Assembly: GCF_000010985.1 (NCBI RefSeq)
Contig: NC_013939.1
Span: forward strand, 1,827,501-1,891,500
Length of the DNA: 64,000 nucleotides
Source: Deferribacter desulfuricans SSM1
GTDB lineage: Bacteria; Chrysiogenota; Deferribacteres; Deferribacterales; Deferribacteraceae
Direction: 5' to 3'
This document shows, one piece after another, positions 35,985 to 42,683 of the stretch. A program made the position numbers and the translations under genes. The notes beneath the pieces were generated by a model. The model ran no database searches, was not told where the DNA came from, and worked only from the letters and a program-made list of their open reading frames with translations. How positions within the stretch are numbered: position 1 is the stretch's first letter; each line of letters begins with the position of its first letter.

Positions 35985-36121
35985 GATTATGTTCACAATA
36001 AGTAAAATGAACTTCGTTCAGTATTTCAAACAATTTTTATTTATTAAGGTTATTAAATCTATTTTTCAAACAAAATAAGTTAATCTTTACTTTTTAAAAT
36101 ATTTTGTTAGATTTTTTTAAT

Positions 36122-37930
36122 ATGAAAAAATTTGACTTTAATACAATACCAGAAAAACCAGGCGTATACATTTTTTTGGATAAAAACTCTACCCCTTTAT
36201 ACATAGGAAAAGCCAAAAATCTAAGGAATCGAGTTAAATCGTATTTTACAAACAATCTTAATTTAAAAACTGAAATAATGGTGCAAAAAGCATTTGATAT
36301 TAAATATATTATCACTAAAAACGAAGTCGAAGCATTACTTTTAGAAGCAAATCTGATAAAAAAAGAGAAACCAAAATATAATATTTTACTTAAAGATTCT
36401 AAGTCTTATCCTTATTTAGAAATTACTGCGCATGAATATCCAAAAATTAAAATAAGTAGGAAAATCTCCTCAGATTCAACATATTTAGGTCCATTTGTAA
36501 ATGTGAGTGATTTAAGAGAAATATTGAGAGAACTTTTAAAGCTTTTCCCAATAAGAACTTGCTCTGAACAGACCTTTAAAAAAGGGAAATCCTGTATTAA
36601 CTATCAAATTAAAAGGTGTACTGCACCTTGTGAAGGTTTAATAAGCAAAGAAGAATATATGTCGCTAGTAGATAATATCATAAGTGTATTTAAAGGAAAA
36701 ACTAAAAATCTATTAGAATATTTTGAAGAGAAAATGATTCTACACTCTAAAAAGTTGGAATTTGAAAAAGCTGCTGAATACAGAGATAAAATAAATGGTC
36801 TAAAAAAATTAAGTTTAAATCAGCATATAGTTTATAAAACAGACGCAAATATTGATATTCTTTATTTTAAAACAATTTATGAGCAATACTCAGGTCTCTT
36901 AATCATTTTTATCAGGAACGGTAAAATAATAGGAGTAGATAGGGAGATTTTTAATTCGCAGATTTATCAAGATGATATCCCGGGTTTCATAATACAGTTT
37001 TATACAAAAAATAAGATTTTGCCTGAAAAAATATCTATTATAATAAACAATAACTATTTTACTGACAGACTGTTAGAAGACACATTAAAAGAGTTTAAAA
37101 AAAATATTAAATTAACAAAATCTATCAAAAAAGATATTTTAGATTTTGCTGATAAAAATCTTCAAATATTTTTTGAAACAGAACTTTCAAAAAAAATTAA
37201 AAGTAAAGACTTATTTGAACATCTTGCTAAAAAATGCCATTTACCAAACGATATTAATACTATTGAGTGTATAGACATTTCTCATCTTTACGGGAAAAAT
37301 ACAGTTGGTGTTTCTATTTTTTTTGAAAACGGTTCTTTCAATAAAAATAGATACAGAAGATATAAAATAAAATCTGCCAACAATGATGATTTCTTAGCAA
37401 TTCATGAGATTTTTAGGCGAAAAGCCTTAAATATTATGAAAAATAAAGAGGAACAAGCTGATTTATATATTATAGATGGAGGAAAAGGGCAGTTACAAAG
37501 TGCCATTAGAGCATTTAAAGAACAAAATATACAGGCAAATTTCATCTCAATTGCTAAAGGAAGAAGCAAAGATGAGCCTAACAACAATCTTTCCAAAGAG
37601 GAAGTTTATATCCCAGGCAGAAAAAATCCGATTAATTTTAAAAAGGATGACCCAGTGTTGCTTTTGATTCAAAAATTAAGAGATGAAGCACATAGATTTG
37701 CTATAGAATACCAAAGAAAACTTGCCTTAAAAGACCTAACATCATCCCCACTTTTACAAATTAAAGGGGTTGGAGAAAAAACTATAAAAAAAGTTTTAAA
37801 AGAATTTCCAGATATTTATACAAATAGCAACATAACAAGCGAAGAGCTCTCTAAAAAATGTAAGATTTCAAAAAAGGTTGCAGAAGATATTGTCAATTTT
37901 TTACGAACTTTTCAAGGCAACAGCAGTTAA
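36122..37930 (+). CDS. uvrC: UvrABC excinuclease subunit C
   Basis: UvrC makes both incisions in nucleotide excision repair. The 602-residue product has the N-terminal GIY-YIG nuclease domain (PEKPGVYIFLD, PLYIGKAKNLRNRVKSYF), the ECxxA-like CINYQIKRCTAPC stretch, a UVR helix pair (KKLEFEKAAEYRDKI), the RNase H-like C-terminal nuclease domain (IECIDISHLYGKNTVG, IIDGGKGQL) and two helix-hairpin-helix motifs at the end. ATG 36122 starts MKKFDFNTIPEKPGVYIF; an in-frame TTG at 36104 is possible. No Shine-Dalgarno sequence is visible. The 3' end overlaps the convergent peptidase gene by 30 bases. Confidence 0.96.
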   Translation: MKKFDFNTIPEKPGVYIFLDKNSTPLYIGKAKNLRNRVKSYFTNNLNLKTEIMVQKAFDIKYIITKNEVEALLLEANLIKKEKPKYNILLKDSKSYPYLEITAHEYPKIKISRKISSDSTYLGPFVNVSDLREILRELLKLFPIRTCSEQTFKKGKSCINYQIKRCTAPCEGLISKEEYMSLVDNIISVFKGKTKNLLEYFEEKMILHSKKLEFEKAAEYRDKINGLKKLSLNQHIVYKTDANIDILYFKTIYEQYSGLLIIFIRNGKIIGVDREIFNSQIYQDDIPGFIIQFYTKNKILPEKISIIINNNYFTDRLLEDTLKEFKKNIKLTKSIKKDILDFADKNLQIFFETELSKKIKSKDLFEHLAKKCHLPNDINTIECIDISHLYGKNTVGVSIFFENGSFNKNRYRRYKIKSANNDDFLAIHEIFRRKALNIMKNKEEQADLYIIDGGKGQLQSAIRAFKEQNIQANFISIAKGRSKDEPNNNLSKEEVYIPGRKNPINFKKDDPVLLLIQKLRDEAHRFAIEYQRKLALKDLTSSPLLQIKGVGEKTIKKVLKEFPDIYTNSNITSEELSKKCKISKKVAEDIVNFLRTFQGNSS

Positions 37931-39019
37931 AAATATCCTTTCACTAACAGAGTCTTTTATAATAAATTCCTTATCGCTATGATCATTCCCACCTAAAGGA
38001 CCAAATCCATCCAGTACAGGGACACCACATGCTGATATAAAATTTGCATCGGATACACCATTTCTAAATTCATTTTTCAAATTTATTCCATAGTTTGAAA
38101 ACTGCTCTTTTAACTTATTAAAAAATTTCATATTATCATTCTCATCCATACATGGTCTTTCACTTGTCTTAATCATTTCAAATTTAACACCTTTAATATA
38201 GCTTTTATTAGCTATATCCAAAATCTTTTTGGCCAAATAATCTCCATCCTCTTTGCAACTATACCTGATATCAATCATAATCTCTGCATAATCTGGCACA
38301 GTATTCGCACCTATACCCCCAGCAACTTTACCCACATTGCAAGAAATCCTCTTTTTGATGTCATTTAGGTTTTCAAAATCAATTATTCTATGAGCAATAT
38401 CCAAGATTGCTGATTTTTTACCTTTTATGATAAAAGCAGCATGCCCTGCTTCCCCTTTTGAAAAGGCTTTTAAACCAATTTTACCTTTTCTACCTGTAAC
38501 AACTTCCCCATTTTCTCCTGCACCCTCAAAAACAATAGCGCAATTTGCACCTTTTGCATATTTTTCAATCAAAGTTTTAGATTTTAAAGAACCAATCTCT
38601 TCATCAGAATTTATCAAAAACTTTATATTTAAATTATTTAATTCACCAATAAAATGTAGAAATTTCAGCGCATATAAAGCTACAACTAAACCACCCTTCA
38701 TATCGTATGTGCCAGGCCCTTTTACAACGTCACCTTCAAACAAAATTTTTTGAAATTTAGAGTCTTCAGGAAAAACTGTATCCATATGCCCCATGAGTAA
38801 AATATAATCTTTCCCACTAGAGCTATTTTCCAGCAATAAACAGTTATTTTCTAAAAATTTATACGATAGAAAATTAGCTTTTTTGCTAAAAATATTTAAA
38901 CACTTTTTAATCCCTTTTTCGTTAAAACTATAACTGTTTGTCTCTACTAAGTCTGTGAGGAGTCTGAATATTTCAGACTCCTCATTTTTATAAAAATTTA
39001 TAAACTGCTGTTTAATCAT
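37901..39019 (-). CDS. M20 family zinc peptidase/deacylase
   Basis: A 372-residue M20 metallopeptidase, nearest in layout to carboxypeptidase G2/ArgE-type enzymes. Zinc ligands appear in MGHMDTV (about H78, with D80), GTYDMKGG (D106), SDEEIGS (catalytic E140, ligand E141) and GGNDHSDKEF near the C-terminus; a lid domain with IKGKKSAIL and ISCNVGKVAGGIGANTVP sits between. ATG 39019 overlaps the KamA-like stop by 8 bases after AGGAAA. As last gene of the GntR/ATP-grasp/KamA-like operon it may hydrolyse or trim the pathway product, or regenerate substrate. Confidence 0.85.
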   Translation of the reverse strand: MIKQQFINFYKNEESEIFRLLTDLVETNSYSFNEKGIKKCLNIFSKKANFLSYKFLENNCLLLENSSSGKDYILLMGHMDTVFPEDSKFQKILFEGDVVKGPGTYDMKGGLVVALYALKFLHFIGELNNLNIKFLINSDEEIGSLKSKTLIEKYAKGANCAIVFEGAGENGEVVTGRKGKIGLKAFSKGEAGHAAFIIKGKKSAILDIAHRIIDFENLNDIKKRISCNVGKVAGGIGANTVPDYAEIMIDIRYSCKEDGDYLAKKILDIANKSYIKGVKFEMIKTSERPCMDENDNMKFFNKLKEQFSNYGINLKNEFRNGVSDANFISACGVPVLDGFGPLGGNDHSDKEFIIKDSVSERIFLTAVALKSS

Positions 39020-40571
39020 AGTATTTCCTAAAAGCGAACTGTTTGTCATTTTTATATGTTTCAGGATCTGCATCTGGATATTTTACAATCTCACCACTCC
39101 ATGGCTTTCTCAAAATAATATTTCCATCCTCAGCAAACTCTACAACATTTGTTCTATGCAATGGTATTTTACCACCTGCTGTAGCAATATACCTTGGGAT
39201 GGCATCTCCTGAGATATTTCCATACATCCCTTCTATAATATCCTGCCCAACCTGCACAGGCACTCTCATATGGGCAAATTGTGGATTTCTATAACTGCAG
39301 TTAAACACGTAATATGGTCTTACATAAGCTTCCTGTATTGTTTCGCAAAGCTTCCACATTTTTACCTTTGAGTCATTTATCCCTCTTAATAGAACTGCTT
39401 GATTTAAAACTGCTGAAACTCTCTTGGAAATCTGTTTAAATACCTCTTTGGATATAGGTGTTATTTCCTGAGCTGTATTTATCTGAGTAACAACGCGCAA
39501 TGGTTTTTTATCGTTACTTTCTTCTAAAATATCTAAAAGCTCTTGATCAACCCTCTGTGGTGTTGTAACTGGTATCCTTGTCCCCAATCTTTTCATCTTT
39601 ACATGATCAATTTTATCCAGCTCTTCCAATATCCATCTAATCAAAGAGTTAGGCAATACAAATGCATCACCACCAGTTACAAGTACATCTCTGATGTTTT
39701 TATTATTTTTAATATATTCTAAAGCTTCCAAATATGCTTTTTTGTTATAAATTCTGTCTTTTTTGCCAATATGAGCAATTCTTAAGCAGTGAGTGCAATA
39801 CATCGCACACATATTTGTAGATTTGATCGTAACTACTCTTGGGTAAAACTGATCTATCAATCTTGCTGGAGAATGGTCAGCAGCTACAGGTGGAATCTCT
39901 ACACCCACATTATCTACCATCTCTCCGGTAGGTACTGATTGGAGCAATACCGGGTCATTGATATTTCCAGGCATTATCAAACTTGCATAATATGGTGTAA
40001 GTCTCATTCTATAATGCTTTGTAACTCTCAATACATCAGTTATAGCCTTTTCAGGTAAATCAATTATTTTAGAAAGCGTTTCCACATCCTCTATGGCAAA
40101 TTTTAACTGACCTGTGTAGCTGTTCCAATCTTTATCTGTCATACCAAGTGTTTCCATAATCCTTTTCTTATTTTCAACAATTTTATCCCATAATTCTATT
40201 CCACTTGGCGCTTCAATATCTTTTTTAGCAAGATATTCTTCAACCCTCTTATTTGCTTCCTCAACAATTGGAATAGCTTTTAAAACTCTACCGCCTACTG
40301 TCACACCATGCTCATCTATATTTTTATGTTTATCAGCAAGCTCTAATAACTCTTCCCTATTAAAGCCAAAAGACTCTGCGCTAATCCCATCTTTTTCATT
40401 TAACAAAAGAAGCTTTCTAAAAAGCTCTACTATTGGTGCTGTGAGTTCTTCACTTTTCGCTTTTTGATATAACTCATTAATCTCATCTCTTAAAAAGTTA
40501 TAAACCTCTTTTTTTTCACCACTAAATATTTTGTCAAACAACTCTTTTGTTAAAGCATCTCCATAATCCAT
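39012..40571 (-). CDS. KamA-family radical SAM PLP aminomutase-like enzyme, non-lysine type
   Basis: A 519-residue protein, about 100 longer than lysine 2,3-aminomutase because of an extra N-terminal domain. The radical SAM cysteines are C255, C259 and C262 (CAMYCTHC), TGGDAF follows, and the likely PLP lysine is K468 in AGGKIPL. In lysine 2,3-aminomutase the substrate side-chain amine is held by two aspartates, in QCD and VDAPGGGGK; here the same positions read NCS (S426) and IATAGGK (three residues shorter), so both are lost. Glutamate 2,3-aminomutase also changes these two positions, so the true substrate may be glutamate or another amino acid. It lies 11 bases after the ATP-grasp gene. 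Confidence 0.82.
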   Translation of the reverse strand: MDYGDALTKELFDKIFSGEKKEVYNFLRDEINELYQKAKSEELTAPIVELFRKLLLLNEKDGISAESFGFNREELLELADKHKNIDEHGVTVGGRVLKAIPIVEEANKRVEEYLAKKDIEAPSGIELWDKIVENKKRIMETLGMTDKDWNSYTGQLKFAIEDVETLSKIIDLPEKAITDVLRVTKHYRMRLTPYYASLIMPGNINDPVLLQSVPTGEMVDNVGVEIPPVAADHSPARLIDQFYPRVVTIKSTNMCAMYCTHCLRIAHIGKKDRIYNKKAYLEALEYIKNNKNIRDVLVTGGDAFVLPNSLIRWILEELDKIDHVKMKRLGTRIPVTTPQRVDQELLDILEESNDKKPLRVVTQINTAQEITPISKEVFKQISKRVSAVLNQAVLLRGINDSKVKMWKLCETIQEAYVRPYYVFNCSYRNPQFAHMRVPVQVGQDIIEGMYGNISGDAIPRYIATAGGKIPLHRTNVVEFAEDGNIILRKPWSGEIVKYPDADPETYKNDKQFAFRKYYD

Positions 40572-40582
40572 TACTCTACCTC

Positions 40583-41968
40583 CTAAAGTATAAAAATTGT
40601 ATTTTCTACTAGTTTTTTACCAAACTCTATACCCTCAAGCATCTCTTCTCTTGTCGTTGCCACTGAAACAATTCTGGCCAAAAAAGTACCTGTAGTAATA
40701 ATAAAATCGTTACCAATATGCTCCATCACCACATAGTCTTTTTTTAACTTCCCTTTTGCCACTTTTCTAAAAATTTCCCTTTCATCTTTAAATTGAGGGA
40801 TATAACCATCAGTTACCGTATTTGTTGGGACTTTAAAATTATAAGTACCCCAATGAATCTCGTTGCAATCACGTTTTTCAATAACATTTTCAGGGAATTT
40901 CTCATATAATACTGCATGTAATTCCAATTCTGGTAGGTTTGGGCTACCTTCAGGCAAACAGTTTTCAAGTGTACAACAAAACTCCAATGTTGTTCCCTGT
41001 TTTCTTGCATTTATTTCCACAAAAAATACATTTTCATCATCGTCTACAATGTAATCACAACCAAAAATACCTCTGTAACCATATTTTCCTAAAATTCTAC
41101 CTATTTTTTTTGTATAATCATAAAGTTGATCTTGAACCTTTTCTGGTAATATGGATGGGTAAGTTGAACCTGTAAACTTTGTACCATCAACTATTCTTTG
41201 ATCTGCCACTCCAGCAATGTATACATCATTTTCATTTCCCACTACCCCTAAAACAGTGGGGTCGTATTTATGAGGGATATATCTCGAAATAAGATAATTG
41301 GTATCAAACCCTTTAAATTTTTCATAAAGTTCCCTTTTTGTGTAAGAAATTATACTGTTTGCACCACCTGCACTATATTCTAAAGTCACAAAGATACCAT
41401 CAACCCATTTATCCCTTAGACTTTCCGTTTCATCTACCAGTTGAGTAAAGCTGTTGCAAATTTTATGCTCTACAACTGGGATTTCATTTTTCAAAAGAGT
41501 ATATTGAAATATTTTATTATTAAACTTTTCAACCAAAAATGGATCTGGTCCTATTAGTTTTACTTTTTCGTGCTCTATTAAAGTCAAATAAGGAGAGCTT
41601 TCAAACATATACACATAAAGCTCTTCCTGATTTTCTAATATCTTATGTATCATATTGTGCACATACTCATTGTGGGAAACAGCAGTATAAAACTCCCTTG
41701 AAGTAATTCTTGAGCTTATCTTTCTCTTGTTAGTGGATTTCTTTTGATAAGCTTCAACTATTGGATTTATTACAATTATATTTTCATAATCGTACTGCTC
41801 AAAAACATCTGGAACAATGGCAAAAAACTCCACTTCCCTTTCAGGTTTTAATTTAGAGAGAGCTTCTGCAAAGAAAGTATTTATACCATAAGATTTTAGC
41901 TCACCCACATAAACAAAATAATACTTATCTGGATTGTAGTCAAAATTAGTAAATAATATATGCTCCAT
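40583..41968 (-). CDS. ATP-grasp ligase, uncharacterised subfamily
   Basis: A 461-residue ATP-grasp enzyme. The N-terminal 130 residues are a pre-grasp-like domain with repeated aromatic residues. The ATP lid has LEYSAGGANSII (about residues 196-208), later GKYGYRGIFGCDYIVDDDENVFFVEINARKQGTT gives the Mg-binding aspartate/glutamate/asparagine set (about 312-333). ATP-grasp ligases join a carboxylate to an amine or thiol through an acyl phosphate. It lies between its GntR regulator (9 bases) and the KamA-like gene (11 bases), so ligation of an amino or beta-amino acid is likely, but neither substrate is known. Confidence 0.82.
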   Translation of the reverse strand: MEHILFTNFDYNPDKYYFVYVGELKSYGINTFFAEALSKLKPEREVEFFAIVPDVFEQYDYENIIVINPIVEAYQKKSTNKRKISSRITSREFYTAVSHNEYVHNMIHKILENQEELYVYMFESSPYLTLIEHEKVKLIGPDPFLVEKFNNKIFQYTLLKNEIPVVEHKICNSFTQLVDETESLRDKWVDGIFVTLEYSAGGANSIISYTKRELYEKFKGFDTNYLISRYIPHKYDPTVLGVVGNENDVYIAGVADQRIVDGTKFTGSTYPSILPEKVQDQLYDYTKKIGRILGKYGYRGIFGCDYIVDDDENVFFVEINARKQGTTLEFCCTLENCLPEGSPNLPELELHAVLYEKFPENVIEKRDCNEIHWGTYNFKVPTNTVTDGYIPQFKDEREIFRKVAKGKLKKDYVVMEHIGNDFIITTGTFLARIVSVATTREEMLEGIEFGKKLVENTIFIL

Positions 41969-41977
41969 ATCAACCTC

Positions 41978-42619
41978 TCATTGAGCTCTAAGAGCTATTT
42001 TTTGTCCTGTTTCCAGATAATGCTCTCTAATGACTTCTTCCACTAACTTTTTATTATCACTCTTTATCGAATTGATAATTTTAATATGCCTTTTTTTAAT
42101 TTCGTTTGGTGTATAAATGACTCCCCAATTTTGGGAAAATAAAACATGCGATCTAAAGCTTAATCTTTTAGTCTCATAAACTAACAACTCATTTTCACAT
42201 TTAGTAAATAGAAGCTCATGAAATTTATCACCAATATCAATCAATACAGAGTTATCATCAGCTTTAGCTGCCCGGTACATCTGTTTTACATAATCATCTA
42301 AAATATCCAAGTCTTCATCGCTGATTTTAAACATAGCATCAGCAACAGCATAACCTTCTAAAACTCCTCTTGTTGTATAAATATTTATTATCTCTTTTGG
42401 AGTAAGTTTTCTAAGAAATGTTCCTTTATGAGGCTTATACTCTAAAATCCTTTCAGCTATAAGTTCTCTAAAAGCTTCCCTTACTGGTGCTCTACTGATA
42501 TTTAACATAGCAGCAATACTGCTTTCTCTTATCTGGTCACCTGGGTTGAACTCTCTTTTTAGTATCATTTCAAAAATAAACTTTTTAACTTTATCTTTGT
42601 ATGTTTCCCTGTCAAACAT
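41978..42619 (-). CDS. GntR-family (FCD) regulator of the ATP-grasp/KamA-like operon
   Basis: A 213-residue regulator: N-terminal GntR winged helix (FNPGDQIRESSIAAMLNISRAPVREAFRELIAERILEYKPHKGTF) and a C-terminal FCD helical ligand domain with the usual metal/acid-binding residues (D near 81, H in KFHELLF, RHIKII and REHYLETG). FCD proteins usually respond to organic or amino acids. An AAAGGTGG ribosome site precedes ATG 42619 and a perfect palindrome lies just beyond. As first gene it probably represses its own operon. Confidence 0.88.
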   Translation of the reverse strand: MFDRETYKDKVKKFIFEMILKREFNPGDQIRESSIAAMLNISRAPVREAFRELIAERILEYKPHKGTFLRKLTPKEIINIYTTRGVLEGYAVADAMFKISDEDLDILDDYVKQMYRAAKADDNSVLIDIGDKFHELLFTKCENELLVYETKRLSFRSHVLFSQNWGVIYTPNEIKKRHIKIINSIKSDNKKLVEEVIREHYLETGQKIALRAQ

Positions 42620-42643
42620 ACAACCACCTTTCGCCGACAGTCG

Positions 42644-42655
42644 ATTGTCGACAAT
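42644..42655. promoter_or_regulatory. GntR/FCD operator palindrome
   Basis: ATTGTCGACAAT is a perfect 12-bp palindrome of the TTGTnnACAA form favoured by FCD-type GntR regulators, 25 bases before the GntR start. A second overlapping inverted repeat CGACA-N6-TGTCG covers 42635-42650. Confidence 0.65.
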
Positions 42656-42683
42656 ATCTATGGTATTTAAAAAAAAATGTCAA
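42655..42683 (-). promoter_or_regulatory. Promoter of the GntR/ATP-grasp/KamA-like operon
   Basis: On the minus strand TTGACA (42683-42678) is followed after 17 bases by TAGATA (42660-42655). The -35 is perfect but the -10 is weak. The operator palindrome starts at the -10, as expected for repression by blocking RNA polymerase. Confidence 0.5.

Follow-up and report, generated by a model that had tools for sequence, protein, structure and literature searches.

To our knowledge, few bacterial pathways to beta-amino acids are known. In the osmolyte system for N-acetylglutaminylglutamine amide (NAGGN), an amide-forming ATP-grasp enzyme and a dedicated peptidase are encoded in one cluster, and the product is a glutamine dipeptide solute. 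Beta-amino acids are attractive as inert solutes since they are excluded from protein synthesis. Several of them, including beta-glutamate and beta-glutamine, are static compatible solutes (PMC1224877). Methanohalophilus portucalensis obtains the solute beta-glutamine through a glutamine synthetase that amidates beta-glutamate in an ATP-dependent reaction, and early labelling work on methanogens spoke against an aminomutase origin of beta-glutamate (PMC1224877).

The window, a stretch of 64,000 nucleotides from the deep-sea vent bacterium Deferribacter desulfuricans SSM1 (NC_013939.1, positions 1,827,501 to 1,891,500), contains a four-gene operon whose enzymes are of known kinds and whose combination is recurrent and new. 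The genes and their control sites are located as follows:

37901-39019, minus strand: M20 metallo-amidohydrolase, carboxypeptidase-G2-like (372 aa; PF01546, 1e-22)
39012-40571, minus strand: KamA-like radical SAM aminomutase (519 aa; NCBIfam and alignment to lysine 2,3-aminomutase, LAM, 2a5h)
40583-41968, minus strand: ATP-grasp carboxylate-amine ligase (461 aa; PF02655, 2.5e-6)
41978-42619, minus strand: GntR/FCD-family transcriptional regulator (213 aa; PF00392, 8e-15; PF07729, 7e-15)
42644-42655, minus strand: perfect operator palindrome ATTGTCGACAAT, also present in L033 and, slightly altered, in L011
42655-42683, minus strand: promoter-like site, read directly (TTGACA 42683-42678, spacer of 17, TAGATA 42660-42655)

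The regulator and ligase genes are separated by 9 bases and the ligase and KamA genes by 11, and the KamA and M20 genes overlap by 8 bases, exactly as the first-pass annotation of this DNA had described. Its family assignments agree with Pfam and NCBIfam (GntR plus FCD, ATP-grasp_3, radical SAM with a KamA-type core, and Peptidase_M20). The range that it had given, 39012-42683, covers the regulator, ligase and KamA genes but leaves the body of the M20 gene (37901-39011) outside. None of the curated equivalog models fitted any of the four operon proteins. The operon is flanked by uvrC (plus strand, 36104-37930) on one side and by a PAS/GGDEF/EAL gene on the other; the ends of uvrC and the M20 gene share 30 bases (37901-37930) in tail-to-tail orientation. 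The four-gene operon is real and not an artefact, and its genes almost certainly form one functional unit.

The single promoter and single palindrome proposed earlier were both located. The palindrome shares one base with the -10 box and extends downstream, where a conserved TCGAC half comes next, and the exact 12-mer ATTGTCGACAAT has one copy in the whole genome. In a second Deferribacter genome (L033), the regulator gene is preceded by an identical promoter layout and operator. In a Desulfohalobiaceae metagenome-assembled genome (MAG) from another phylum (L011), the promoter layout is kept and the operator is nearly identical (TATTGTCGACATTCGAC). With this conservation, the two sites are no chance match. 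Regulator orthologues lead the same operon in both (74% in L033 and 52% in L011), and autorepression of the operon by the regulator would be the natural reading. Among the loci seen, those with an FCD regulator beside the cassette were limited to Deferribacter and a single Desulfohalobiaceae MAG. The regulator, which had been counted as part of the gene combination, thus lies outside the conserved core; of the four families proposed to occur together, the ATP-grasp, KamA and M20 families do recur as a unit.

The ligase exceeded the gathering score of PF02655, and its K152, D305, E318, N320 and R322 were invariant in the ligase alignment. It belongs to no named family. The nearest named amino-acid ligases were BesA (score 34, cut-off 750) and LdmS (score 29, cut-off 475), and it is a member of neither. 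Its reaction is very probably the formation of an amide bond. The M20 protein has PF01546 and PF07687 domains, and its metal-ligand motifs (HMD, D, DEE, E, H) are present as GHMDTV, YDMKGG, SDEEIGS, FEGAG and NDHSDK. The closest solved structures were those of carboxypeptidase G2 (E ~1e-29), an enzyme that cleaves off C-terminal glutamate. The M20 gene adjoins that of KamA in most cassettes.

The operon KamA passed the model of the broad KamA subfamily (TIGR00238; 233.7 bits, cut-off 199.2). Its best curated model was that of glutamate 2,3-aminomutase (TIGR04368; 349 bits, below the cut-off of 650). The lysine, arginine and EpmB models came behind it, and the scores against AblA (284 bits, cut-off 525) and EpmB (180 bits, cut-off 369) were also below their cut-offs. 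The cluster cysteines C255, C259 and C262, as well as R264 and the PLP lysine K468, are present, and in an alignment with 2a5h the cassette KamA proteins keep C125/C129/C132, the carboxylate arginine R134 and K337 of LAM. Aminomutase chemistry can be predicted for the operon KamA with high confidence. The lysine-binding D293 and D330 of LAM are replaced, by Ser/Thr in the clade of the operon KamA (window clade) and by Lys/Thr in a sister clade (L028, L029 and L060-L063) that has the same ligase and M20 families. A lysine at the D293 position is a mark of the Clostridioides difficile glutamate 2,3-aminomutase (Eam), and two sister-clade members scored 605 and 632 bits on TIGR04368 (cut-off 650). 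In the tree, the window and sister clades grouped together against the lysine and arginine enzymes (support 100/99). We give about an even chance to glutamate or a glutamyl compound as the substrate.

The window clade carries a nearly invariant signature (FNCSYRNPQF / IATAGGKIPLH), approximately 100 extra amino acids at the N terminus and a shifted arginine directly ahead of the cluster motif. By these residues, the window-type aminomutase is a new subtype with its own active-site signature. The branch leading to this clade is very long (6.35 changes per site), so that a change of substrate is conceivable. The amino acid used by the operon KamA could also differ because it scored 349 bits against the cut-off of 650 and does not have the lysine of the sister clade. 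AlphaFold models of the ligase and KamA, built from 3 and 5 sequences, were too poor to use (pLDDT 47 and 59, respectively). Within the poor KamA model the extra N-terminal region was confidently helical, and a Foldseek search with this model returned LAM (2a5h) as the sole match above noise.

The ligase was sampled in genomes of Deferribacterota and Desulfobacterota, and in other phyla by one contig pattern scan. Among 51 Deferribacterota genomes, a high-scoring ligase occurred only in the two Deferribacter genomes, as did the window-type KamA, the subtype of the D. desulfuricans operon KamA. The remaining KamA proteins of this phylum had 30-40% identity, over the core only. The ligase was present in 8/395 genomes of the phylum Desulfobacterota, in 21 of the 340 genomes of the class of G051 and in 5 of the 13 genomes of the order of G188. 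Most mapped loci had the ATP-grasp, KamA and M20 genes adjacent, and many separate branches of the ligase and KamA trees carried the cassette. A search of viral contigs found nothing, and no ligase relative was found in a search of plasmids.

The first-pass annotation had named a lack of co-occurrence in other genomes as contrary to its proposal, and no such lack was found. The ligase was present in 17 of the 20 genomes with a window-type KamA of at least 65% identity (Fisher p 3e-22, 340 genomes sampled; genomes of one class are kin, so this value overstates their independence). The ligase and aminomutase of L029 and L060 form a single open reading frame (926 and 934 codons), which links the KamA-like protein to ligase chemistry. 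The window-type KamA also occurred without the ligase, in G461, G637 and G736. The ligase family in turn occurred without KamA in G548 and G666, with lone copies in G330, G266 and G444. Neither step therefore strictly requires the other.

Several loci showed variations. The KamA frame at L083:1164-2702 is intact except that TAG replaces a conserved tryptophan codon, either a point mutation or a sequencing error. At L012:6001-6462, ligase residues 1-69 are fused in frame to KamA residues 429-516, either by an internal deletion or by a collapse in the assembly; another ligase copy lies on contig C132 of the same genome. In L065, L068, L071 and L074, a ligase paralogue without KamA adjoins a RimK-like ATP-grasp protein (~294 aa), and in G051 and G702 this KamA-less paralogue is a second ligase copy alongside the KamA-linked one; the pair is possibly a two-ligase system. 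A gene for a UbiE-type methyltransferase lies immediately upstream of the ligase gene in two related loci (L079:9151-9882 and L081:9371-10024), where the product may be methylated. On a Rhizobium plasmid (L092:2538-5146) and a Sinorhizobium plasmid (L098:5965-8424), a KamA gene adjoins an ATP-grasp gene, and the Rhizobium pair lies near nifA and electron-transfer flavoprotein genes. We rejected the pair on the rhizobial symbiosis plasmids as the same system, with a ligase identity of 26% over 104 residues and D/C at the KamA substrate positions; by these sequence differences, the rhizobial pairing of KamA and ligase is an independent one.

TAXI-TRAP genes are common. A TAXI-TRAP binding protein and permease were encoded near nine of the loci, in approximately four independent arrangements, and such a glutamate-type importer often adjoins the cassette in the Desulfobacterota relatives. 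All nine binding proteins kept Y45, S75, Q93, H123 and E125 of VcGluP (PDB 8S4J). VcGluP binds glutamate, and loss of Y45 and Q93 lowers its affinity 213- and 990-fold, respectively (PMC11574862). No importer gene was found in the Deferribacter operon. Of the window-type KamA genes without the ligase, the one in L101 has a C45 hydrolase, M20 and a TRAP importer of the DctP type as neighbours. The one in L102 lies with a gamma-glutamyltransferase and with an ABC importer of the peptide type, the binding protein of which weakly matches GsiB and DppA, and the one in L100 lies with a TAXI binding protein. With such importers and gamma-glutamyl or C45 hydrolases as neighbours, KamA also belongs to apparent scavenging operons. 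All these neighbours fit glutamate or glutamyl compounds, as well as makers and scavengers of one molecule. At L010:4173-6626 and L012:6583-10175, the cassette is adjoined by two further genes, one of them glutamine-synthetase-like (436-440 aa) and the other a second KamA (357 aa). This second KamA has Glu at the D293 position of LAM and comes closest to the model of arginine 2,3-aminomutase, below its cut-off; in L012 the unit includes an M20 gene. These extra genes look like a second beta-amino-acid ligation unit.

In the ligase tree, the Deferribacter copy grouped with L011 (100/100) among Desulfobacterota sequences. Identity between Deferribacter and Desulfohalobiaceae was 68% for the ligase and 72% for KamA, compared with 37% for UvrC, and within the genus Deferribacter it was 82-84% for ligase and KamA and 59% for UvrC. 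The complete operon, together with its regulation, was probably acquired by transfer from Desulfobacterota and then kept; UvrC is a single reference protein and thus a thin yardstick, which makes the transfer likely but does not prove it. At L033:11757-12770, a transposase-like gene sits between the operon and uvrC.

The reading that we prefer, with about as much confidence as doubt, is that the operon makes and turns over an amide or dipeptide of the beta-glutamate type. The KamA-like enzyme, with SAM, a 4Fe-4S cluster and PLP, would shift the amino group from the alpha to the beta carbon of an amino acid, with glutamate as the most likely candidate. The ATP-grasp enzyme would then use ATP to couple a carboxylate to an amine, and the product would be a dipeptide or amide that contains beta-glutamate; we infer both this order of the two steps and the partner in the ligation. 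The carboxypeptidase-G2-like M20 enzyme would hydrolyse the amide once the compound is no longer needed. Bound to the palindrome at the -10 box, the FCD regulator would repress its own gene along with the rest of the operon, and it would release the DNA upon binding an organic acid, for which the substrate and the product are conceivable candidates. Among the earlier proposals, an amide of a rearranged amino acid paired with its hydrolase emerged as the best supported, and the amino acid, which had been left general, is now indicated to be glutamate.

The most likely role of the product would be that of a metabolically inert compatible solute, an assignment that we make tentatively and with somewhat less than even confidence. 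The widest salt range among four tabulated Deferribacter species, 18-96 g/l NaCl, is that of D. desulfuricans (PMC13186404), which is compatible with a solute role. No salt-stress genes were tied to the Deferribacter operon itself. A broader and more doubtful reading, to which we give perhaps one chance in three, is an undescribed pathway in which a radical SAM aminomutase and an ATP-grasp ligase, fused into one protein in some species, yield a new class of beta-amino-acid dipeptides or amides serving as compatible solutes. The aminomutase would then represent a new substrate class, with a glutamyl peptide in place of a free amino acid as its possible substrate, and there would be dedicated producers and scavengers of the product among anaerobic bacteria. 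A literature search that covered papers other than subscription ones returned none on an operon of KamA and ATP-grasp genes, which is weak evidence. If true, the cassette would account for the supply of beta-amino-acid amides in sulfate-reducer relatives and vent bacteria. For enzyme work, glutamate is a substrate that can be tested, and the aminomutase subtype has a distinct active-site signature.

Four other explanations were weighed against beta-glutamate amide synthesis. The same enzyme logic could operate on another amino acid if the window-type KamA had changed its substrate to glutamine, to a neutral or aromatic amino acid, or to a glutamyl dipeptide first made by the ATP-grasp enzyme; the product would still be a beta-amino-acid amide. 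The length of the branch between the window and glutamate-like clades, the new and nearly invariant NCSYRNPQF motif with its loss of the substrate-position lysine, and the shifted arginine would all fit such a change. We consider it rather unlikely, given that the ligase and M20 families common to both clades, together with neighbours of the glutamate type, point to an identical or closely similar amino acid. It is less likely still that the operon is a scavenging or catabolic unit, in which an imported amide is split by M20, KamA runs towards the alpha-amino acid, and the ligase serves salvage or re-synthesis. The importers and hydrolases around ligase-less KamA relatives, and the TAXI importers adjoining some full cassettes, are what such a unit would have, but the presence of the ligase in 17/20 genomes and its fusion to KamA in two others fit synthesis, and the Deferribacter operon is without an importer gene.

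A signalling molecule or natural-product precursor, instead of a bulk solute, would agree with the patchy, horizontally moved distribution, the dedicated FCD regulator and the GGDEF-EAL gene next to the Deferribacter operon. We regard this as improbable, as no export, resistance or tailoring genes were found beside that operon and as the built-in hydrolase and the glutamate-type importers of the relatives fit bulk metabolism better. The plain N-acetyl-beta-lysine route and an EF-P-modifying EpmB share a superfamily with the operon KamA and are otherwise contradicted by the missing Asp293 and Asp330, by scores that fall well short of the cut-offs for AblA and EpmB and, for beta-lysine, by a ligase partner in place of an acetyltransferase. 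In addition, ablB (TIGR03827) was absent from the D. desulfuricans genome in a search in which the positive controls matched. The first-pass annotation had already set the beta-lysine route aside, and the aspartates and ablB bear it out; both candidates were rejected and retain a negligible probability.

The proposed beta-glutamate amide synthesis can finally be compared with the known systems. The operon ligase is weakly similar to BesA and LdmS, in the ATP-grasp core only. Like the LAM/abl pathway, the operon combines an aminomutase with a second enzyme that would mask a charged group to give a beta-amino-acid solute; unlike it, the operon has neither lysine-binding aspartates nor an acetyltransferase, and its second enzyme is of the ATP-grasp type and accompanied by a dedicated hydrolase. 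With the NAGGN system, the operon shares an ATP-grasp enzyme and a peptidase in one cluster; the NAGGN system is not known to include a radical SAM aminomutase, and the operon is without an asparagine-synthase-like amidotransferase or acetyltransferase. The beta-glutamine route of M. portucalensis has a parallel in the glutamine-synthetase-like gene beside the second KamA of L010 and L012, and differs from the operon in using a glutamine synthetase where an ATP-grasp ligase is found here. With glutamate 2,3-aminomutase (TIGR04368; C. difficile Eam), the operon KamA shares the cluster, the carboxylate arginine and the PLP lysine, and it differs in the Ser at the D293 position, the extra N-terminal residues and the ligase and hydrolase encoded in its operon. 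The clade with the same ligase comes near the cut-off of this model and has a lysine at the D293 position, as Eam does.
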